Below are positions 15,054-25,473 of a DNA stretch of 64,000 nucleotides, piece after piece (the first letter of the stretch is position 1; each line of letters starts with the position of its first letter). Under the pieces are notes generated by a model that was not told the DNA's origin, did no database searches, and saw only the letters and a program-made list of their open reading frames with translations. Source of the stretch: Alteromonas sp. ALT199 (GTDB lineage Bacteria > Pseudomonadota > Gammaproteobacteria > Enterobacterales > Alteromonadaceae); assembly GCF_018619335.1 (NCBI RefSeq), contig NZ_JAHHDX010000117.1:1-64000 (forward strand). Direction: 5' to 3'. Both the position numbers and the translations under genes were made by a program.

Positions 15054-16130
15054 CTAAAGGTATTTCACAATGCGCGGTACACGCTGAGAAACGCGGGTCA
15101 TTAATTCGTAGTCGATGGTGTCGGCATTAGCTGCAACTTCCTGAATAGACACATTTTGCCCCCACAGTTCGACTTCATCGCCCACCGCTACGTTATCGAT
15201 ATGAGTTACATCAATGGTGATCATGTCCATAGATACCCGGCCAGCTAAATAGGCGCGCTTACCCCGAATCATTACAGGCGTACCGTTTTTACAGTGCCTT
15301 GGATAGCCGTCGGCGTAACCAATTCCTACGGTTGCAATTTTGCTTAGCTTACTTGCTACCCAAGTTTGCCCGTACCCAACTCCCTCGCCTGCCGATATAG
15401 TTCGCACGGCTAGTACACTTGAGCGAAGTGTCATGGCGGGATAGATTTCAATATCTATGTTTTGCGAAGTTGAAACGGCACCTCCGTAAATGCCCACACC
15501 CAAACGATTCCAAGCATTTCGACTTGCAGGCCAATTTACCGTAGCCGGCGAATTAGCCACGCTAGTTGGAAAGCCCAGTTTTCCAACTATCTGGTTAAAC
15601 GCATCCGTTTGAGCATTGGTAAAGCTATTATCTATGTCGTCTGCACACGCAAAATGCGTGGCAATTACCGTTTTTTCGCTAAGCAAATGACGGTATTTAA
15701 CAGTAATATCTTCGATGTCTGAAAGGGCAAAGCCTAAGCGATGCATACCGCTATCTACTTTCAACCAAATATGGGGGCGCTGTTGTTTAGGGCAGCTTTC
15801 TAGCCAGCCAAGCTGTTCTTCACAATGCATAACTAAAATGCAGTTATGCTGAAACGCCATTTGGCATTCCTTCGCCTGATGAGCCCCTTCTAAAACAACT
15901 ATTGGTGCTGTAATTCCAGCATCGCGAAGGGCAATAGCCTCTTCGATGATAGCAACGGCAAAACGCGAAGAAACATGCTGAAGAATACGTGCAACGTTTA
16001 CGGCCCCATGACCATAGGCATCTGCTTTTACCACCGCCATAGATTGGCTTATCGGCGCTAAAGCAGCAAGGGCTTTGAAGTTATGTAAAATGGCGTCAGC
16101 ATGAATAATAGCTTGCGTTTGTCGGCTCAC
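15054..16130 (-). CDS. alr: Alanine racemase
   Basis: 358 residues, the usual length. The PLP lysine motif AVVKADAYGHG (Lys35) and the catalytic tyrosine region VGYGQTW are present, with the (alpha/beta)8 N-terminal and beta C-terminal domains. It interconverts L- and D-alanine for peptidoglycan synthesis or for use of D-alanine released in wall turnover. There is no signal peptide. It is divergent from murQ with 190 bases between them, at the left end of a cell-wall turnover cluster. Confidence 0.96.
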   Translation of the reverse strand: MSRQTQAIIHADAILHNFKALAALAPISQSMAVVKADAYGHGAVNVARILQHVSSRFAVAIIEEAIALRDAGITAPIVVLEGAHQAKECQMAFQHNCILVMHCEEQLGWLESCPKQQRPHIWLKVDSGMHRLGFALSDIEDITVKYRHLLSEKTVIATHFACADDIDNSFTNAQTDAFNQIVGKLGFPTSVANSPATVNWPASRNAWNRLGVGIYGGAVSTSQNIDIEIYPAMTLRSSVLAVRTISAGEGVGYGQTWVASKLSKIATVGIGYADGYPRHCKNGTPVMIRGKRAYLAGRVSMDMITIDVTHIDNVAVGDEVELWGQNVSIQEVAANADTIDYELMTRVSQRVPRIVKYL

Positions 16131-16320
16131 AGAAAAACACGTTCCTTAAATGTTTAACAGGAAAAAAAATATAAAGCCGAAGTGTACCACGAGAAGCTCG
16201 CTTAAGGCGCAGGATTAGTATTGAAAAACCTACTGTCTAACGCAAGGTTTCTTATAGTTTGAAATACCGTTATGCTTTGCGCTCGCTTATTTTAATCATT
16301 TCGTTGCTTCAAGGTTTAAC

Positions 16321-17316
16321 ATGTCTTCGCACACCCCCTCTACTTCAGATTCGCCCGCAACCACTCGTATTAAAAACAACGCGGCAGATGATGCTCCCAC
16401 CGTGAACGAATTAGCTAAATCACTGAATAAAGTTGTCTCTGAAGGCAGAAATCCCGATACGTTGGATATAGATACGTTAAGTACCCAAGGCATTCTAACC
16501 CGCCTTAACAACGAGGATGCTAAAGTCGCAAGCGCGGTAGCACTTCAAATACCCCAAATAACGAAAGCGGTTGATGCCGCAACTGTTAGCATTAAAAACG
16601 GCGGAAGGCTTATTTATATCGGTGCAGGTACCAGCGGTAGGTTAGGCATTCTGGACGCAGTTGAGTGTCGCCCTACCTTTAGCGTACCCGATGAAATGGT
16701 TGTGGGTGTAATAGCGGGCGGAGAGAAGGCCGTTCAGCACGCAGTGGAAGGCGCGGAGGACAATTTTGATGCAGGTCGCACTGATCTTGAAAATTTATCT
16801 TTAACCCAAACCGATACGGTTATTGGTATTTCAGCTAGCGGTCGCACGCCCTATGTAAGTGGTGCACTGGACTATGCTCGTTCTCTAGGGTGCTTTACTG
16901 GTGCAATTGCTTGCAGCCCTAACGCCGCTATTTTTGAGAATGCTGACGTCGCTATATGTCCAGTTGTTGGCCCTGAAGCCCTGACTGGCAGTACTCGCAT
17001 GAAGTCTGGTACGGCCCAGAAGCTTGTTCTTAATATGATTAGCACCAGCACTATGATTAAGCTGGGAAAAACCTATCAAAATTTAATGGTTGATGTGAAT
17101 GCCACTAACGAAAAACTGAAGGCACGCGCCCTTCGCATTGTTATGCAGGCTACAGATTGTAGTGAAGACGCGGCCCTGGCTGCGCTAAATGCGTGCAATA
17201 ACAAAGCTAAAGTGGCTATTTTGATGGTGCTAACAGGGCAAACCGCAGAGCAGGCCGTAGCACAACTAAGTACCAAAGATGGTTACTTACGTAAAGCCGT
17301 AGAAGAAAGAGAATAG
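16321..17316 (+). CDS. murQ: N-acetylmuramic acid 6-phosphate etherase
   Basis: 331 residues with one SIS sugar-phosphate fold (RLIYIGAGTSGRLGILDAVECRPTFS, residues about 92-117, and GISASGRTPYVSGALDYAR). The enzyme removes D-lactate from MurNAc-6-phosphate to give GlcNAc-6-phosphate in the cytoplasm. The N-terminal 30 residues (Ser/Thr/Asn rich) are longer than in E. coli MurQ. It stands 55 bases before the namZ gene in the same direction and is probably its operon partner. The source of MurNAc-6P is not encoded nearby. Confidence 0.96.
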   Translation: MSSHTPSTSDSPATTRIKNNAADDAPTVNELAKSLNKVVSEGRNPDTLDIDTLSTQGILTRLNNEDAKVASAVALQIPQITKAVDAATVSIKNGGRLIYIGAGTSGRLGILDAVECRPTFSVPDEMVVGVIAGGEKAVQHAVEGAEDNFDAGRTDLENLSLTQTDTVIGISASGRTPYVSGALDYARSLGCFTGAIACSPNAAIFENADVAICPVVGPEALTGSTRMKSGTAQKLVLNMISTSTMIKLGKTYQNLMVDVNATNEKLKARALRIVMQATDCSEDAALAALNACNNKAKVAILMVLTGQTAEQAVAQLSTKDGYLRKAVEERE

Positions 17317-17371
17317 CTAAGGCGCTTCTCTGCAATAAGGGACTGCAATAAGGGGGTCCGGTTTAGCCAAT

Positions 17372-18811
17372 ATGAGCATAAATATTACACGTTATACAAA
17401 GAGCGCATTAATCATCGCGTTTACCTTGCTGGTCAGTTTTTCCTTCTTGACCTCATGTGCACAAAACAGCTTATCTACACATGTATATACAACTAATAAT
17501 GACAGTTTAAAAGCAAAACAAAGTGGGCTGACTAATGAAGATTTAAACGCCAATCAACTTGCTGTAGGTGCTGAGCGCTTTTCAACATACCTCCCTTTGT
17601 TAGAAGGTAAGCGAGTTAGTTTGGTAGTGAACCAAAGTTCGTTGGTTAGAAATGATTTGGTTAAAAATAACTACTTAACTGCTCATTCAAAACCGACAAA
17701 AGCAAACCAACCCTATCAGCATTTGGTGGATGCCTTATCACAACGTAACGTTGACCTAGTAAGCATTATGTCACCCGAACACGGATTTAGAGGGGATAAA
17801 GGCGCTGGCGAAAAGGTAAATAGCGATATTGATGCTAAAACGGGCTTACCTATTCATTCGCTTTACGGGGCAACTAAAAAGCCGACAACGGACATGCTTG
17901 AAAACATCGATGTGATTGTTTTCGATATTCAGGATGTGGGCGTACGTTTTTACACCTATTTAAGTACCTTGCACTATGTAATGGAAGCCGCCTTTGCTCA
18001 AGGTATTCAGGTTGTGGTGCTAGATAGACCAAACCCTAACGGCCGCTATATTGACGGCCCGGTACTAAAATCTGAATTTTCGTCTTTCATTGGCATGCAT
18101 CCTATTCCCGTTTTGCACGGCATGACATTAGGTGAACTTGCTCAAATGATCGTGGGAGAGCGCTGGGTAGATATTGACGAAAGTAGTTATAACAACGCTA
18201 AGCTTACCGTTATTCCGGTACAAAACTATCAACGTACTGAGCATTATTCATTACCAGTTGCGCCTAGCCCTAACCTGCCAAACGATTTATCGATACGCCT
18301 TTACCCCACGCTATGTTTTTTTGAGGGTACCGATGTGAGTATTGGTCGCGGCACTGATTTTCCATTCCAGCTTATTGGTCACCCTTTTGTTGAGTTTGGT
18401 AACACCAAGGTACCGGTAAAGGCAAATAGTGCAGCGCCCCACCCTAAACATGAAAATTCCATACTAAAGGCACACGTATTTACTTTCGCTGATCCTACGA
18501 ACTTGGAAAGCCCAGGCCCTAGGCAAGCACTTCAAGAATACTTACCTATTAATGGCTTAGATATCGACACCCTGATAGATGCCTATTCACGTTTTTCTGA
18601 ATATAACAACATGGTCGGCGCCAATGGTAGCTCTGAAGAAACCTTCTTCACTCGCCCAGATTTCTTCGACAAATTAGCGGGTACTGATGCGCTACGAACT
18701 CAAATTCAAACCGGCAAAACACCTACAGAAATTCGCAAAAGTTGGCAGAAAAACTTAAGCAAATTTAGAGAAAAAAGAAAGGTGTATCTTCTTTACGAAG
18801 ATATGGATTAA
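17372..18811 (+). CDS. namZ: NamZ-type exo-beta-N-acetylmuramidase (DUF1343), lipoprotein
   Basis: 479 residues. The N-terminus has a hydrophobic signal and a lipobox (SFLTSC, about residue 29). From about residue 65 it follows the DUF1343 pattern: GKRVSLVVNQSSLV, LVSIMSPEHGFRGDKGAGEKVNSD, LPIHSLYGATKKP, VIVFDIQDVGVRFYTYLSTL and VLDRPNPNGRYIDGPVL. The founding member, Bacillus YbbC/NamZ, cleaves non-reducing terminal MurNAc from peptidoglycan fragments. Here the protein would act in the periplasm anchored to a membrane. With nagZ it could strip glycan chains alternately to GlcNAc and MurNAc. Follows murQ closely. Confidence 0.9.
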   Translation: MSINITRYTKSALIIAFTLLVSFSFLTSCAQNSLSTHVYTTNNDSLKAKQSGLTNEDLNANQLAVGAERFSTYLPLLEGKRVSLVVNQSSLVRNDLVKNNYLTAHSKPTKANQPYQHLVDALSQRNVDLVSIMSPEHGFRGDKGAGEKVNSDIDAKTGLPIHSLYGATKKPTTDMLENIDVIVFDIQDVGVRFYTYLSTLHYVMEAAFAQGIQVVVLDRPNPNGRYIDGPVLKSEFSSFIGMHPIPVLHGMTLGELAQMIVGERWVDIDESSYNNAKLTVIPVQNYQRTEHYSLPVAPSPNLPNDLSIRLYPTLCFFEGTDVSIGRGTDFPFQLIGHPFVEFGNTKVPVKANSAAPHPKHENSILKAHVFTFADPTNLESPGPRQALQEYLPINGLDIDTLIDAYSRFSEYNNMVGANGSSEETFFTRPDFFDKLAGTDALRTQIQTGKTPTEIRKSWQKNLSKFREKRKVYLLYEDMD

Positions 18812-18956
18812 GGTTCAAATTAGCATATTTAGCTTTAAGCATTTGAAGGCGAAATTGGGTAGTATTAGTGAGCTAAATTCACACCCTCAATATGTAAGTA
18901 AACACTCACACTCAAAGGGTGCCATAAAAGAATAAACCAAAAAAAGTTAGTAAAAG

Positions 18957-20027
18957 CTAACCTTCTTCATCTTTTGATTTTACCAAGGTTGCAAGCTGAG
19001 CTTCGGCGGTGGCTTTTTGATGTTTAAACTCATCCCTACTTTCGCCGTCACTTTCTGCGAGCTTTGCATCAATATCGGCAATCGTCTGCATCAGTGTTTC
19101 TTTACTCTTTTCTTTTTGCTCAGCCTCTTCTGCCTTGTCAAAAATAACGTCTTCAGGGGACGCTTCTTCTTGCTTAGTTTGACCTGGAGATTTAGCTATC
19201 ATCTTCAAACCGTCAGGCTGTGGACGTTGGTTCATAAAGCTAGGTGAAACAATTTCAATATCGGCATTATGCAACGCGTCGAGTACGGCTTTGTGAAGTC
19301 GTGAACGCGCGCTGAGCAAACTCTTCACTTCGGTGAGGAGACCTGAAATACGATAGCTTACTGAGAAGTCGCCTAACCCGACCACTTGTACAAATGGCTC
19401 TGACAATTGAGCATTTTCAGCAGCAACAATTAAGTGCTTTTCGATAATACTGTGATGGATATCGTAACCTAAACTAATATCCACACTAACGATTGCGCCA
19501 GAGGCTCGGGTTACTGAAACGGGCGAGTTCACCATTAGGGTATTAGCAAACGCAATAAGTTCTCTGCTCTCGGTCTGAATTTCAACATCAAGCAAGCCCA
19601 TTTCGGTAACACGACCGCTATAACCTTCTACTTTTATAAAATCACCCACTTTAAACGGTCGGTTTACACGAAGTACGATCCCCGCCATCAAATTTCCAAC
19701 CATAGTGGTGGAAGAAAACGCAATCACACCTGAAATCAGTACACCAATGAGCGCAATAACCTGGTTTCTTGTGCTTTCACTTACTGGGAGGGAAATTGCT
19801 ATCACTACCGCACCAACGATAGTAAGTACCAACATACCGACTTGACGTGGCAATTTTTGCTCACTGGTAAGGTGGCTCTGCTTTGCTAGCAAAAGGTAAT
19901 GTAGTGCGATAAGCGCACTTAGTACCAATACAATAGCAATAAGTAGTGGAGCAAAAGGAAGCAGCGCATTTAACACAGTATCGACAAATGATGTTTGTGC
20001 AGTGCCTGGCGTGTTTTCGGTATCCAC
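18957..20027 (-). CDS. MscS-family mechanosensitive channel
   Basis: 356 residues: three N-terminal membrane helices (about 22-45, 66-84, 91-112), then the pore-lining helix with GVIAFSSTTMVGNLMAGIVLRV, and the beta domain FKVGDFIKVEGYSGRVTEMGLLDVEIQT, all typical of MscS. The C-terminal 90 residues are charged, rich in Glu and Lys, and predicted as coiled coil (KAEEAEQKEKSKETL and following), an extension beyond E. coli MscS. The gene sits head to head with neither neighbour's promoter obvious: it converges on namZ and is just downstream of nagZ (52 bases), so it may share nagZ's transcript. Confidence 0.92.
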   Translation of the reverse strand: MDTENTPGTAQTSFVDTVLNALLPFAPLLIAIVLVLSALIALHYLLLAKQSHLTSEQKLPRQVGMLVLTIVGAVVIAISLPVSESTRNQVIALIGVLISGVIAFSSTTMVGNLMAGIVLRVNRPFKVGDFIKVEGYSGRVTEMGLLDVEIQTESRELIAFANTLMVNSPVSVTRASGAIVSVDISLGYDIHHSIIEKHLIVAAENAQLSEPFVQVVGLGDFSVSYRISGLLTEVKSLLSARSRLHKAVLDALHNADIEIVSPSFMNQRPQPDGLKMIAKSPGQTKQEEASPEDVIFDKAEEAEQKEKSKETLMQTIADIDAKLAESDGESRDEFKHQKATAEAQLATLVKSKDEEG

Positions 20028-20079
20028 ATTTATTCCTTTTAAATTGGCTCTTAAACTATTTTAACTTTTACGATGACAA

Positions 20080-22083
20080 TTAATTTAATGAAACCGGTGA
20101 GCGGCCTTCAACAAGCGCATTGCCCATTAGCACATCGGCCAATGCGTTAAGGCTATAACTAGTAACCTGCTGATTTGCTTTATCACTTTGTTTGGTAATA
20201 TTAACTGCATAACTGAATGTAGCAATAGCAACATCAGCCAACTCTTTCACGTCTTGTGCTTTGTAAGGCATGCGCAGCGGTGTAAAAATAACGGTTTTAC
20301 TTTGTGTTTTCGCAGTTCTCATTATCTTTTTGCTAAATGCCATCACATCGTTTTCGCTTGCGCGTCTTGTTATATGCTCAGGTAAATCGAACCCACCTAA
20401 CTCGTAGTTAGCGTGAAGAGGACTAATATTTCCAACTACCAGCACATCGGCTTGTTTCAATAGGTTTATTGCTAATTGGGTTTCCGGTAATGCCGTTAAA
20501 GGTAAACAAGCAAACTCTAGTGGTTTATTGGTGTCCGTAAAACGAGGGCGTGTAAGCGCTGCTTCAAACGCTAAACATCTTGCCGCATCTGGCATAAGTG
20601 CCAACCAGCGGCTTGTAGTTATTGGTAGCTTATCCTTTCCATAGAGTACAGTTACCGATGATTTAGAAAGCGCTTTCTCAACTTCAATCCCTCTATTTTT
20701 CAAACTGTTATGATTATCCATTGAAGCATTTTCTTTTGCTTCATTAAGCCACCATGACATAGGCTGGGAAAGGAAATTTTGCAGAGCAAAGCGTTGTTTT
20801 GCCTTGAGAATACGATTATGAGACGCCCTTAAGAAAGCGCTTTCTGAGACTCGTCTTGCCGCGTTATCTAAAAGTAACGCGAACTTTTTTATGTCGTCTT
20901 GATTTCTTATGGTGAAAGGCATTAGCGCTATATCAGCGCCAGCACTGAATGCGCTAACTAAAGCTTCTTCATGTGAGAAAAACTGAGTAATTCCAGCCAT
21001 GTCTAACGCGTCAGTAACGATTAGACCTTGATACCCCAATTGGTTGCGAAGCAAATTGCTTAGTATCTTCTTTGACAAGGTAGCAGGAACAATTTGCGAC
21101 ATACCATGCTTATCAATAATTGTAGTATCGTCCAAAGACGGGTACTGAATGTGTGCACTCATTACCATTGCTGGAGGCGTTGCACTATTGATAATGTTAG
21201 CAAAAGGAAGGATATCTCCTTCCATAGCTTGCGCTTCGGTGTGCGTTACTTGCGGCAAGCCGCTGTGGCTATCTACATGGGTATCACCGTGGCCTGGAAA
21301 ATGTTTGATAGCGCTCATAACACCTGTGCTTTGCATAGCACTAACAAATGCCAGTCCGAGTGCGGCTACCTGTTCTGGTTTTTCAGAAAAGCTGCGTACG
21401 TTTATAACGGGGTTTTTAGGCTCGCTATTCACATCAACCGACGGCGCAAAATTGGTGTTAATACCCAGCGGTAAAAGCGCTTGGCCAATATGCGATGCTA
21501 CACTTTGCGCAAATGCACTGCCTCGCTGATGAAAGGTGGCGCCAATGGCCATGTTACCCGCAAACGGCGAGAGCATTTCTGAAGGCAACCTTGCGACCCT
21601 GCCCCCTTCTTGATCGACAGCAATGAACAAGGGCTGACGACCTGCTTTTACCATATGCTGTTGCATGGTGTAATTAAGCGTAATTAATTGCTCGGTGTTT
21701 TGGATGTTCTCTGAAAACAAAATCACACCGCCTATGTTGTGCGTACTAAGCACATTTAAAAGTGACGCTGGGATTACGGTCATCGGTGTGCGGCAGTGTG
21801 ATGACGGCGTGTTGTCTTCACAAAAATAGCGAAAATCTAAGATGATTTTTTGCCCTAGCATGTCTTTTGTTGCGCTAATTGTTTCTGCGCTAGCCCTCTT
21901 AACGCTGACCTTGGACAACCCTGTTTTCGTAGTACTCGATGTTGAAGAATCTGCGTTTAAAGATTGAGTACTTGCGCCAACAGCATAAAAACTGACACTA
22001 AATAAAACTAACATGCCCAAAAAAATAAAGTTTAGGCCCAATACAGGAACGCGCTTTTTACAAATAACTTGCTGGAATAACAA
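20080..22083 (-). CDS. nagZ: Exported NagZ-type beta-N-acetylglucosaminidase (GH3)
   Basis: 667 residues, about twice the size of cytoplasmic proteobacterial NagZ. An N-terminal hydrophobic segment (residues about 14-37) implies export or membrane anchoring. The GH3 barrel is complete: FIAVDQEGGRVARLP, KHFPGHGDTHVDSH with the family's Asp-His acid/base dyad (Asp271, His273), and nucleophile Asp358 in LIVTDALDMAG. A second alpha/beta domain follows (about residues 480-660), as in Bacillus YbbD/NagZ. It should remove GlcNAc from the non-reducing end of muropeptides outside the cytoplasm. The context with namZ and murQ supports wall recycling. Confidence 0.92.
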   Translation of the reverse strand: MLFQQVICKKRVPVLGLNFIFLGMLVLFSVSFYAVGASTQSLNADSSTSSTTKTGLSKVSVKRASAETISATKDMLGQKIILDFRYFCEDNTPSSHCRTPMTVIPASLLNVLSTHNIGGVILFSENIQNTEQLITLNYTMQQHMVKAGRQPLFIAVDQEGGRVARLPSEMLSPFAGNMAIGATFHQRGSAFAQSVASHIGQALLPLGINTNFAPSVDVNSEPKNPVINVRSFSEKPEQVAALGLAFVSAMQSTGVMSAIKHFPGHGDTHVDSHSGLPQVTHTEAQAMEGDILPFANIINSATPPAMVMSAHIQYPSLDDTTIIDKHGMSQIVPATLSKKILSNLLRNQLGYQGLIVTDALDMAGITQFFSHEEALVSAFSAGADIALMPFTIRNQDDIKKFALLLDNAARRVSESAFLRASHNRILKAKQRFALQNFLSQPMSWWLNEAKENASMDNHNSLKNRGIEVEKALSKSSVTVLYGKDKLPITTSRWLALMPDAARCLAFEAALTRPRFTDTNKPLEFACLPLTALPETQLAINLLKQADVLVVGNISPLHANYELGGFDLPEHITRRASENDVMAFSKKIMRTAKTQSKTVIFTPLRMPYKAQDVKELADVAIATFSYAVNITKQSDKANQQVTSYSLNALADVLMGNALVEGRSPVSLN

Positions 22084-22300
22084 TGTTTATCTAATCCTTG
22101 GTAACACGACGCACAATACGGTACGCTAGCATAAATGAGAGAATCTTGTTCGCCAACTTTGAACTGTATACACACATTCTCTTTTACTTTTTCTTACGCG
22201 TTTTCTTACGCAGAAATATACCTTTAGGGCATGCTTACCTTTGTTGTACAGCGAAGATCACACGTCCTAAGCACACATGAATTTAAGTTTGGAAAGAAGT

Positions 22301-23677
22301 ATGGATTGGATGTCAGTCATCCCCCCTCTTGTGGCTATTGTCGTCGTCTTTTGGAAAAAAGAAGTTATATTAGCATTGGCACTGGCTGTTTTGTGCGCGG
22401 AAGCGTTAATTTTGGTCAATGCTGATTTCACTAGCAGTTACATGGCCCCTATTAATGCCATAGAGCGTGTAGTTGATACCGCTTCTAGCCCAGGCAATAC
22501 GAGGGTACTTATTTTCTCGGTACTTGTAGGCGCATTACTCGCTTTCATTCGTGATTCAGGTGGAGTAACGGCAACGGTTGACTATCTAGTGAACAAGGGC
22601 GTGGCCAAAACCCGCAAACAAGTGGGTAGTTTGACCATGTTCACTGGCATTGCCGTGTTTATAGAGTCGAACCTAAGTGTACTTACTGCCGGCATATTTG
22701 CCCGAGGGTTATTTGACCGTTTTGGCATGAGCCGCGCACGTTTAGCTTACATAATTGATTCCACCAGCGCGCCTGTTTGTATTTTGATTTTATTAAATGG
22801 CTGGGGGGCCTTTATACTCAGCCTACTAGATGCGTACGAACTACCCGCTTCGTCGGCCTCAATTTTATGGGGCAGCGTATTTTTTAATTTTTACGCTATC
22901 TTCACCTTACTTATAGTGGCCTACACTATTTCCGCTGATAAAGTGCACGGCCCCATGGCTGAAGAAGAGAAGGCGCTAACTCATGTCGAGGTAAATCAGA
23001 CTACTGAACCTGCCACTAAAGCCCGATTCATGCTTGTACCACTATTGGTAATGGTATTCAGTATGGTTGGATTCATGTTCTGGACAGGTAATGGCGTATT
23101 ATCTGAAGGTAGCGGCAGTAAGTCTGTACTTTATGCCACTGCCCTTGCCACCGCCATAGCCTACGGTCTGCTTTTAATCCACAAACGCTTTACCCATAAA
23201 GAAGCGGTAGAAATCGGTTTTAAAGGGATGGGTGAACTACTTCCCCTAGTTACTATAGTGTTACTTTCATTAACCTTGGGCAATAGCCTTAAGGTGCTTG
23301 GTACAGGCGTTTTTGTGGCAGGAATAGTGGGTGAATATCTTCCATTGGTGCTGATTGTTCCCATGCTGTTTATTGCCGGGGCTATCATGTCGTTTACTAC
23401 TGGCACGTCATGGGGCACGTTCGCTATTCTTGTCCCCATTGGTGTTCCGCTAATTCAAAGTTTGGGGTTACCCCCTTCACTGGTAATTGGCGCTATATTA
23501 GGTGGCGGCATATTTGGCGATCACTGTTCACCTATTTCCGACACTACAGCCGTATCTTCGCTAGCTGCGGGTACTGACGTATTAACCCATGTTAAAACCC
23601 AGTTCCCCTACGCATTATTTGCGGGCGCACTTACGCTTATTGCCTATTTTGTAGCAAGTTTGGTCATGCTTGGTTAA
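22301..23677 (+). CDS. NhaC-family Na+/H+ antiporter-like transporter
   Basis: 458 residues from ATG 22301, with about 11-12 membrane helices. Motifs such as VLVGALLAFIRDSGGV, SNLSVLTAGIFARGLFDRFGMSR and IFGDHCSPISDTTAVSSLAAG belong to the NhaC/YuiF-type Na+/H+ antiporter family. ATG 22301 is chosen because GGAAAG lies about six bases upstream; ATG 22277 is possible but has no ribosome binding site. It is divergent from nagZ (about 215 bases apart) and precedes ggt. Members of this superfamily may also carry small organic acids, so a role in uptake of wall-derived products is conceivable but unproven. Confidence 0.87.
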   Translation: MDWMSVIPPLVAIVVVFWKKEVILALALAVLCAEALILVNADFTSSYMAPINAIERVVDTASSPGNTRVLIFSVLVGALLAFIRDSGGVTATVDYLVNKGVAKTRKQVGSLTMFTGIAVFIESNLSVLTAGIFARGLFDRFGMSRARLAYIIDSTSAPVCILILLNGWGAFILSLLDAYELPASSASILWGSVFFNFYAIFTLLIVAYTISADKVHGPMAEEEKALTHVEVNQTTEPATKARFMLVPLLVMVFSMVGFMFWTGNGVLSEGSGSKSVLYATALATAIAYGLLLIHKRFTHKEAVEIGFKGMGELLPLVTIVLLSLTLGNSLKVLGTGVFVAGIVGEYLPLVLIVPMLFIAGAIMSFTTGTSWGTFAILVPIGVPLIQSLGLPPSLVIGAILGGGIFGDHCSPISDTTAVSSLAAGTDVLTHVKTQFPYALFAGALTLIAYFVASLVMLG

Positions 23678-23754
23678 TTCTACAGGCTGAAGTTTGTCGG
23701 TAGTCAGTTGCTAATCGCAAAGGTCTAGTAATTTCTGTAGCAAGGAGTTTTGTA

Positions 23755-25473
23755 ATGAAAAAACGGATAGCTAACGTCGGGTTTATCGCGGTGATAGTGG
23801 CATGTATATCGGTAGTAGCAGCGTGTTCCCAAGCGCCAAATAACACTGTTGATAGTGCTAACAGTAATTCAGTAGGGCTTAGCCAACAAGCTGTCGCTAT
23901 GCCAGATAGCTACAGTGCCGATGCCGCAATGCAGGTACTTCAGGAAGGCGGCAACGCCATTGACGCTGCAATTACGGCTCAGTTTGTTTTGGCCGTAACG
24001 CTGCCAGAGGCGGGCAACGTAGGCGGTGGCGGCTTTATGACAATAAAGTTTGAAGATAGCACCGACTTTCTTGATTACCGCGAAATGGCACCGGAGAGTG
24101 CCCATCGCGACATGTACCTTGATGACAAAGGTAATGTAAAGCCCTATGAATCTTTGTTTGGCGCTAAGGCGTCAGGTATTCCTGGTACCGTTGCAGGTAT
24201 GTGGGCCGCGCACAAAAAATACGGGACCTTAAAGTGGGAGCGCCTTCTCGCCCCTGCTGTAGAGTTAGCCGAGCAGGGTTTCGTGGTGCATGAGAAGCTA
24301 GCAAATAACATTGCACGCTATATTGCACGTACTCAAGAAAAAGACATTAAAAACAATTTCAGTGAGTATTTTGAAGAAGCGAAAGCGGGCACTACTTTTA
24401 AGCAGCCTGAGCTAGCGAAGACTCTTAAAGCTATTCAGCAACAGGGAGAAGACGGCTTTTATAAAGGCGAAATAGCAAAGCACATTATTGATTTTATGCA
24501 GCAAAATGGCGGTCTTATTACCTATGAAGATTTGCTGGCTTACAAAGCCGTGTGGCGTGCGCCTCTTCACTTAAACTGGCAGGGCTACGAGCTAGTTACC
24601 GCCCCTCCTCCAAGTTCGGGTGGCGTTGCTGTGGCACAGTGGATTGGCATGCTAGAAGCTTATGATGTAACCCATGACCTACCCGCACAAAACAGCACTG
24701 AATATATTCACGTTATGTCTGAAATAGGCAAACGTGTGTTTGCCGATCGCGCCCAATACATGGGCGACCCTGACTTTGTCAGTGTTCCGGTAAAAGCGCT
24801 CACAGCCGCTAACTACATTACTGAACGCGCAGCAGAGATTCAGCCCGCCAGCATTTCTGATACGCCAACCGTGAAGCCTGGCTTGAAAGAGAGCGAAGAT
24901 ACAACTCACTTCTCAATAATGGACAGATGGGGTAACGCCGTTGCCAATACCACTACCATAAACCTTACTTTTGGTAGTGGCGTTGTTGTAACTGGCGCCG
25001 GCTTCTTGTTGAACGATGAAATGGACGACTTTAGCGCCAAGCCTGGTGTGCCTAACTTTTTTGGCGCTGTAGGTGGCGAAGCGAATGCGATTGAGCCCTA
25101 CAAGCGTATGTTGTCTTCTATGACACCAACGCTTGTTACTAAAAACGACCAAGTGGTTCTGGTAACAGGCTCTCCGGGCGGAACCACCATTATCTCGTCA
25201 GTTGCACAGTCGCTACTGAACGCCCTGCTTTACGATATGAGTGCAGAAGAAGCCGTGAACTCACCGCGTTTTCATCACCAGTTGCTGCCAAAAGACACCA
25301 TTCGTATGCATGACGGGTTTACTGAGGCTACCGTTAATGAACTGAAAGCCATGGGCTATACCATCGATAACCGTCGTTTTGGTGATGTGCACTTAATTAA
25401 ACGCACTAAGAACGGGGTGGAAGCGGCGTCTGAAAAAAGCGGACGGGGTAAAAGCCTAGTACAACCTTATTAG
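23755..25473 (+). CDS. ggt: Gamma-glutamyltransferase, lipoprotein
   Basis: 572 residues. N-terminal signal with a lipobox (VVAAC, about residue 24). The Ntn-hydrolase core is intact: the autocleavage/nucleophile threonine in DTTHFSIMD (Thr383), the substrate-binding GGEANAIEPYKRMLSSMTPT and LVTGSPGGTTIISS. It cleaves gamma-glutamyl bonds of glutathione and gamma-glutamyl peptides outside the cytoplasm. Membrane anchoring differs from the soluble E. coli enzyme. It lies 77 bases after the NhaC-type gene with a good AAGGAG site (23742-23747 region), likely in one operon. Confidence 0.95.
   Translation: MKKRIANVGFIAVIVACISVVAACSQAPNNTVDSANSNSVGLSQQAVAMPDSYSADAAMQVLQEGGNAIDAAITAQFVLAVTLPEAGNVGGGGFMTIKFEDSTDFLDYREMAPESAHRDMYLDDKGNVKPYESLFGAKASGIPGTVAGMWAAHKKYGTLKWERLLAPAVELAEQGFVVHEKLANNIARYIARTQEKDIKNNFSEYFEEAKAGTTFKQPELAKTLKAIQQQGEDGFYKGEIAKHIIDFMQQNGGLITYEDLLAYKAVWRAPLHLNWQGYELVTAPPPSSGGVAVAQWIGMLEAYDVTHDLPAQNSTEYIHVMSEIGKRVFADRAQYMGDPDFVSVPVKALTAANYITERAAEIQPASISDTPTVKPGLKESEDTTHFSIMDRWGNAVANTTTINLTFGSGVVVTGAGFLLNDEMDDFSAKPGVPNFFGAVGGEANAIEPYKRMLSSMTPTLVTKNDQVVLVTGSPGGTTIISSVAQSLLNALLYDMSAEEAVNSPRFHHQLLPKDTIRMHDGFTEATVNELKAMGYTIDNRRFGDVHLIKRTKNGVEAASEKSGRGKSLVQPY

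Follow-up and report, generated by a model that had tools for sequence, protein, structure and literature searches.

What use does an Alteromonas strain make of genes for stripping and splitting peptidoglycan sugars when no dedicated importer of these sugars lies beside them? The question is raised by positions 15054 to 25473 of a 64,000-nucleotide stretch of Alteromonas sp. ALT199 DNA (the window), where alr, murQ, namZ, mscS, nagZ (nagZ2 in the following), nhaC and ggt lie together. This grouping, pointed out in an earlier sequence-only reading, is real: all seven open reading frames (ORFs) were confirmed in place and order by means of the ORF list and of Pfam and NCBIfam profile searches. 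On balance, the core of the group, murQ, namZ and nagZ2, is probably the Alteromonas form of the NamZ/NagZ/MurQ salvage locus for peptidoglycan sugars, reduced in the group of strains to which the window belongs. In the text below L numbers denote loci (stretches) and G numbers genomes, G000 being the genome of the window.

The murQ, namZ and nagZ2 core

The first gene of the core, murQ (16321..17316, + strand), codes for an N-acetylmuramic acid (MurNAc) 6-phosphate etherase of 331 residues (TIGR00274, 408 bits with a cut-off of 302); four murQ matches were obtained in G000 and only this one exceeded the cut-off. The best solved match of the protein is 4s12, a MurNAc-6-phosphate (MurNAc-6P) etherase (E value 5e-107), and E115, E143 and E146 are invariant in 13 aligned sequences, in blocks which in E. 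coli MurQ hold the catalytic glutamates. After a gap of 55 bp follows namZ (17372..18811, +), the single match of its kind in G000. Its product of 479 residues, a predicted exo-beta-N-acetylmuramidase and possible lipoprotein, reached 262.9 bits with NamZ_N and 100.1 bits with NamZ_C (Pfam cut-offs 26.9 and 25), and comparison with the structure database gave 4jja and 4k05 as solved homologues. The third gene, nagZ2 (20080..22083, -), codes for a predicted exported two-domain beta-N-acetylglucosaminidase of glycoside hydrolase family 3 and of the B. subtilis YbbD/NagZ type (667 residues; Glyco_hydro_3, 257 bits). Since its alignment with that B. subtilis protein (3bmx, its best solved match) extends over residues 70-624, both domains are present in NagZ2; the KHFPGHG block, D271, H273 and D358, which we take to be catalytic, do not vary among the 14 sequences aligned.

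The description of NamZ as a lipoprotein, given in the sequence-only reading, is possible for the window protein, in which a pattern search found a lipobox-like LTSC with its last residue at 29 and Ala after it. However, the narrow pattern matched just 13 of 71 NamZ relatives, the window protein counted, thus a lipid anchor is not general among NamZ proteins. NagZ had been described as exported and double-length. The double length goes with two domains, and export is probable, the N-terminus being hydrophobic by eye, although the lipobox pattern had no match in the window protein; it matched 13 of the 61 NagZ2 proteins compared. That both exo-glycosidases are probably exported and are linked with murQ is supported, and as judged from their families NamZ and NagZ2 are likely to strip wall sugars outside the cytoplasm.

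The grouping of murQ with namZ cannot be ascribed to chance, since murQ was found in the namZ stretch of 19 of 21 loci at the level of the order and of 57 of 58 loci of the genus. The 21 loci come from the window genome and from 20 of the other 24 genomes with a match (G152 is a NamZ match below the cut-off, and G169, G221 and G258 stand outside this comparison). The 58 loci are those of 59 Alteromonas genomes minus G345, where namZ lies at a contig end, and some of their stretches are cut by contig ends; in the G345 stretch a symporter and a BadF kinase could be seen by eye near murQ. All three core genes were in the first stretch of 50 of the 58 genus loci, with nagZ2 missing in seven and murQ in one. 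NamZ was found in 59/59 Alteromonas genomes; a sample of 295 genomes of the order gave 25 with NamZ, 24 of them over the cut-off. MurQ exceeded its cut-off in 23 of the 24 NamZ-bearing genomes tested, as against 2 of 7 genomes of the same family without NamZ. A comparison of named genomes covered the best 80 of 565 confirmed stretches, some of them short. By the BLAST threshold applied, the 11 gammaproteobacterial stretches among these carried murQ in 9 cases and nagZ2 in 6, while the other 69, as far as recognised presumably of Bacteroidota, carried murQ in 2 and nagZ2 in 4. In L268 and L267, from G327 (a single contig) and G324, namZ is split into two ORFs, by decay or by a sequencing error.

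Fuller loci in relatives and probable reduction in the window's group

Relatives hold a fuller locus for MurNAc use, which comprises a sodium symporter, a BadF-type kinase (fused to MurQ in some), MurQ, NamZ, an RpiR-type regulator, NagZ and an amidase/AmiE-like fusion, usually in the order symporter-(kinase)-murQ-namZ. Besides the 19 with murQ, the 21 loci include 16 with nagZ2, 12 with the sodium:solute symporter, 12 with the RpiR-type regulator, 10 with alr and 10 with the NhaC carrier. A protein with the PTS_EIIC domain of the phosphotransferase system (PTS) takes the place of the symporter, beside murQ, in only two of the 21, L033 and L050. In L227 (G340), namZ comes directly after the symporter and no murQ was found in the stretch. 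Where a kinase adjoins or precedes murQ, PF01869 matches were found at its position; the kinase adjoins murQ in L034, L035, L038 and L039, which are among the relatives having both symporter and kinase. The L034 kinase matched 1zc6, a probable N-acetylglucosamine (GlcNAc) kinase (110.7 bits), above 8zo3, a MurNAc/GlcNAc kinase (68.3 bits). Fusion of the BadF-type kinase ahead of MurQ in one protein of 615-636 residues was found in L037 (10290-12137, -), L047 (10641-12494, -), L048 (7611-9491, +) and, in Psychrosphaera, L120 (6655-8565, +), the domains being confirmed by NCBIfam in L048 only. Such a protein is possibly a single-chain MurNAc kinase/etherase.

The AmiE-like fusion near the fuller loci, of Amidase_2, PG_binding_1 and a beta-lactamase fold (L046 17169-19673, +), is probably exported. 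It had a whole or partial match in 17 of 31 genomes and none in G000, G031, G204 and G214. Another companion is an FAD/Fe-S protein of the GlcD/YdiJ kind (L045 10761-13604 and similar, +; nearest to the GlcD and YdiJ models, under their cut-offs), which is in the stretch of 21 of the 58 genus loci and may oxidise the D-lactate released by MurQ. A neighbour of about 940 residues had been considered as a TonB receptor, which was ruled out by its Pfam FAD-oxidase and Fe-S domains. Further neighbours are an M14 carboxypeptidase, an SH3/NlpC-P60 protein and an enzyme nearest to the L-Ala-D/L-Glu epimerase model, under its cut-off. By families and gene order the fuller loci look like MurNAc/muropeptide utilisation loci. 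In them NamZ and NagZ2 would take MurNAc and GlcNAc singly off wall fragments outside the cytoplasm, the sodium symporter would import the MurNAc and the BadF-type kinase would convert it to MurNAc-6P; MurQ would then split this into GlcNAc-6P and D-lactate, and the RpiR-type regulator would control the set. Growth on external MurNAc is plausible in the relatives and unproven in the window organism.

In the window locus no linked MurNAc transporter, PF01869 kinase, regulator, amiE or murR was found. The sequence-only reading had proposed external peptidoglycan as the food source here, and this is not supported, as four parts of the fuller loci (importer, local kinase, regulator and amidase/AmiE fusion) have no counterpart at this locus. 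The symporter stands beside namZ in 23 of the 58 genus loci and is absent from the fetched stretches of the other 35. In these symporter-less loci alr, murQ, namZ and nagZ2 occur in 35/35 and nhaC in 34/35, together with a kinase in one, a regulator in one and the amidase/AmiE fusion in none. With the symporter profile 14 of 31 genomes gave at least 847 bits and the other 17, G000 included, at most 202 bits. No match to PTS_EIIC (PF02378) was obtained in G000, other PTS permease families not having been searched, and none to the amidase/AmiE fusion at E 1e-20, a search that did not seek a free-standing distant AmiE. One locus, L252 of G322, is intermediate, with kinase and RpiR-type regulator and no symporter in its stretch.

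In a tree built quickly from the genes of the locus itself (69 rows, no bootstrap; L032, L049 and L227, with no murQ in the stretch, are outside it) the symporter state changes six times, and the window belongs to a 29-row group without symporter. Since the symporter is also present in further genera of the family and, outside the family, in G058, its loss is the simpler reading, and the window's group would have lost the kinase, regulator and fusion as well. Relaxed selection on murQ, namZ and nagZ2 after the loss had been suggested by pairwise distances and by dN/dS, the ratio of nonsynonymous to synonymous rates, although dS was usable in just two to three symporter-bearing pairs per gene and in no such pair for nhaC and ggt. 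In a tree-length test, which compared 9 rows with the symporter and 28 without it over 20 resamplings, the ratios were 7.1 for murQ, 3.4 for namZ and 3.6 for nagZ2, and those of the controls were 2.2 for alr, 5.0 for nhaC and 14.4 for yitT. The claim was dropped because the two sets overlap.

Possible supply of MurNAc to MurQ

What the window locus chiefly lacks is an importer and a kinase of its own, since NamZ would yield free MurNAc and MurQ needs MurNAc-6P. In the window's group AnmK would feed MurQ from the cytosolic anhydro-sugar route and GlcNAc would be used through the nag genes, while free MurNAc, if used, would need another carrier and a broad-specificity kinase, for example a NagK-like one. 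Three enzymes of cytosolic anhydro-muropeptide recycling are present in G000: besides MurQ it has a short E. coli-type NagZ (L082 9090-10145, 351 residues, no signal seen by eye) and AnmK (L079 3029-4231). The contrast drawn earlier between glycan stripping outside the cytoplasm and the cytoplasmic route of E. coli is thus no either/or, because in the window genome the internal route coexists with the exported enzymes. AnmK is adjoined by a FucP-family permease of the major facilitator superfamily (together L079 3029-5623, contig C140), a candidate carrier for MurNAc or anhydro-MurNAc.

As regards phosphorylation, G000 has two BadF kinases. One lies next to nagA (TIGR00221; L081 9677-11859, contig C35) and is a candidate broad GlcNAc/MurNAc kinase; the other is, by eye, near a nagA-like gene. 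The G000 kinase that was tested reached 286.3 bits with the GlcNAc kinase model, under the cut-off of 370. In a kinase tree, where 10 of 51 inner branches are weak, both stand outside a group formed by 12 kinases that are linked to murQ or namZ in other genera, while the kinases inside symporter-bearing Alteromonas loci form a sub-group of their own in the same tree half as the G000 kinases; therefore a NagK-like kinase may serve MurNAc in the genus. The L043 kinase, which BLAST had grouped with the MurQ-linked kinases, was placed elsewhere by the tree. Eight matches to PF01636 (AmgK-type) were obtained in G000; five of their neighbourhoods were inspected by eye and had no obvious murU adjoining. 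These five neighbourhoods looked like other genes, which speaks against a PF01636 protein there as AmgK.

Several of these observations weigh against a salvage locus reduced by loss. The symporter may have given way to a carrier from a different family, and MurNAc may be a substrate of the two NagK-like kinases. The case for loss of the symporter over repeated gain is made from its presence in other genera and from the quick tree described above, and the relaxed constraint suggested by the first rate comparison was not shown to be specific by the tree-based control.

The alternative that survives best is that strains of the window's group use the exported enzymes for turnover or remodelling of their own wall and MurQ for the anhydro-MurNAc route only, their adjacency being a relic. 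The absence of importer, local kinase, regulator and amidase/AmiE fusion in the searches made is in line with this, as are the AnmK and short NagZ of G000 and the two namZ ORFs of the single-contig genome G327. However, a pure relic would not predict that murQ, namZ and nagZ2 stay together in all the symporter-less genus loci over that divergence, and we hold this explanation possible but unlikely.

We also doubt that the window locus, as a sub-case of the salvage reading, is a complete working route for external MurNAc by an NhaC-type or FucP-type carrier and a NagK-like kinase. This is favoured by the constancy of the core and near-constancy of nhaC in the symporter-less loci, by the dN/dS of namZ (0.10-0.29 in 10 symporter-less pairs, an eleventh of 0.04 being set aside for its high dS), by the permease adjoining anmK and by the tree half that the G000 kinases share with those of symporter-bearing Alteromonas loci. 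On the other hand, nhaC also flanks symporter-bearing loci (see below), so that its position is no mark of replacement, the G000 kinases are apart from the 12 linked kinases of other genera, and the tested one scores with the GlcNAc kinase model. Rather improbable, in our view, is an unrecognised route for import and phosphorylation of free MurNAc, made up of a carrier outside the PTS, SSS and AmpG families and a recruited GlcNAc-type kinase, by which NamZ and NagZ would still feed MurQ after the symporter was lost.

Flanking genes and known systems

By its layout the stretch consists of four units and is not one operon: alr (-), murQ-namZ (+), nagZ2-mscS (-) and nhaC-ggt (+), where nagZ2 and mscS point towards murQ-namZ and nhaC and ggt point away from nagZ2. 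The alanine racemase gene alr (15054..16130, -; TIGR00492, 337.9 bits with a cut-off of 168) is divergent from murQ and within the stretch of 58/58 genus loci. As the only alanine racemase match in G000, its product presumably serves wall synthesis, and alr is probably a housekeeping gene; the link by D-Ala to the same food source, proposed earlier, is therefore not upheld. The MscS-type channel (18957..20027, -; 356 residues; MS_channel_2nd, 48.4 bits) is a variable neighbour, present in 23 of the 58 genus loci. The NhaC-family carrier (22277..23677, +; 466 residues; Na_H_antiporter, 142 bits, under all three NCBIfam cut-offs listed) is a near-constant neighbour in the genus. The last gene, ggt (23755..25473, +), codes for a gamma-glutamyltransferase of 572 residues (G_glu_transpept, 557.8 bits; TIGR00066, 526.1 bits with a cut-off of 357.85), the N-terminus of which is hydrophobic and lipobox-like by eye.

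In the first stretches of 20 kb, nhaC was found in 34 of the 35 genus loci without the symporter and in only 5 of the 23 with it, which made it a candidate replacement of the symporter. The idea was dropped when the next stretch of 17 loci (16 symporter-bearing ones and L252) was taken in: nhaC was then found in 15 of 17, so the contrast was an artefact of stretch length. Similarly, ggt was in 27 of 58 first-look stretches and in 15 of 17 extended ones. The positions of nhaC and ggt are conserved in the genus with or without symporter, and any part of them in MurNAc use is that of a candidate, unproven. That everything between 15 and 25 kb, alr, ggt, MscS and NhaC included, is one functional cluster feeding on external peptidoglycan and glutamyl peptides is very improbable: exactly this content (14 gene types scored) recurs in 15 of the 58 genus loci, the window's included, but alr is the sole racemase match, mscS is inconstant, nhaC and ggt are indifferent to the symporter and, outside the genus, within about 10 kb, ggt was in 0 of 14 loci and nhaC in 5 of 14.

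NamZ enzymes are known from Bacillus, and we take the B. subtilis gene ybbC to be namZ. The parallel with the Bacillus murQ-nagZ-namZ locus, drawn in the sequence-only reading, holds, since murQ-namZ with a probably exported NagZ resembles that locus. In B. subtilis amiE and nagZ come after murQ-murR-murP and ahead of ybbC, and AmiE and NagZ degrade muropeptides in sequence and extracellularly (PMC5061867). As there, MurQ, a two-domain NagZ and NamZ are linked in the window (16321-22083), and some relatives also have an AmiE-like amidase fusion and an RpiR-family regulator. NagZ2 and YbbD align in both domains and the catalytic-loop block is retained, but no lipobox was seen in NagZ2, whereas the 3bmx structure record names the B. 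subtilis protein a lipoprotein. The contrast with Bacillus proposed for the exported, double-length NagZ does not hold: the B. subtilis enzyme, too, has two domains and is a lipoprotein that works extracellularly, therefore NagZ2, with its two domains and probable export, presents the Bacillus condition and no departure from it. The differences lie elsewhere, in a window genome without PTS_EIIC match, a window locus without amiE and murR, a sodium symporter and kinase in place of MurP in the relatives, and the Gram-negative envelope of Alteromonas.

A Gram-negative MurNAc route is described for T. forsythia murTKQ, with a separate transporter, the PF01869 kinase MurK and MurQ (PMC10465942, PMC5790795, PMC5388701); MurK is a demonstrated MurNAc 6-kinase of the PF01869 family (PMC5790795), and NamZ1/NamZ2 enzymes of Tannerella forsythia are named in the title of a cited paper. 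Alteromonas relatives differ by namZ directly after murQ, a candidate transporter of the SSS family and, in some, a fusion of kinase and MurQ, and the window locus by having neither transporter nor linked kinase. With E. coli recycling (AmpG, NagZ, AmpD, AnmK, MurQ; murQP uptake) the window genome shares the short NagZ, AnmK and MurQ, and it differs by the added two-domain NagZ and NamZ, probably exported, and by the lack of a PTS_EIIC match.

Among the papers listed, a set without most subscription papers, none had a title or start of abstract on a NamZ-MurQ locus in Alteromonas, which does not prove that no such paper exists. The window locus is a reduced Gram-negative variant, and more can be learned from the fuller loci of its relatives, where symporter and kinase-MurQ fusion are found. 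This marine genus has NamZ as a core trait (59/59 genomes), and the loci form a natural series from fuller ones, with symporter, kinase, regulator and amidase, to those with little beyond the enzymes. This series makes the role of exported exo-glycosidases without a dedicated importer directly testable in related strains, which is relevant to how marine heterotrophs use peptidoglycan.

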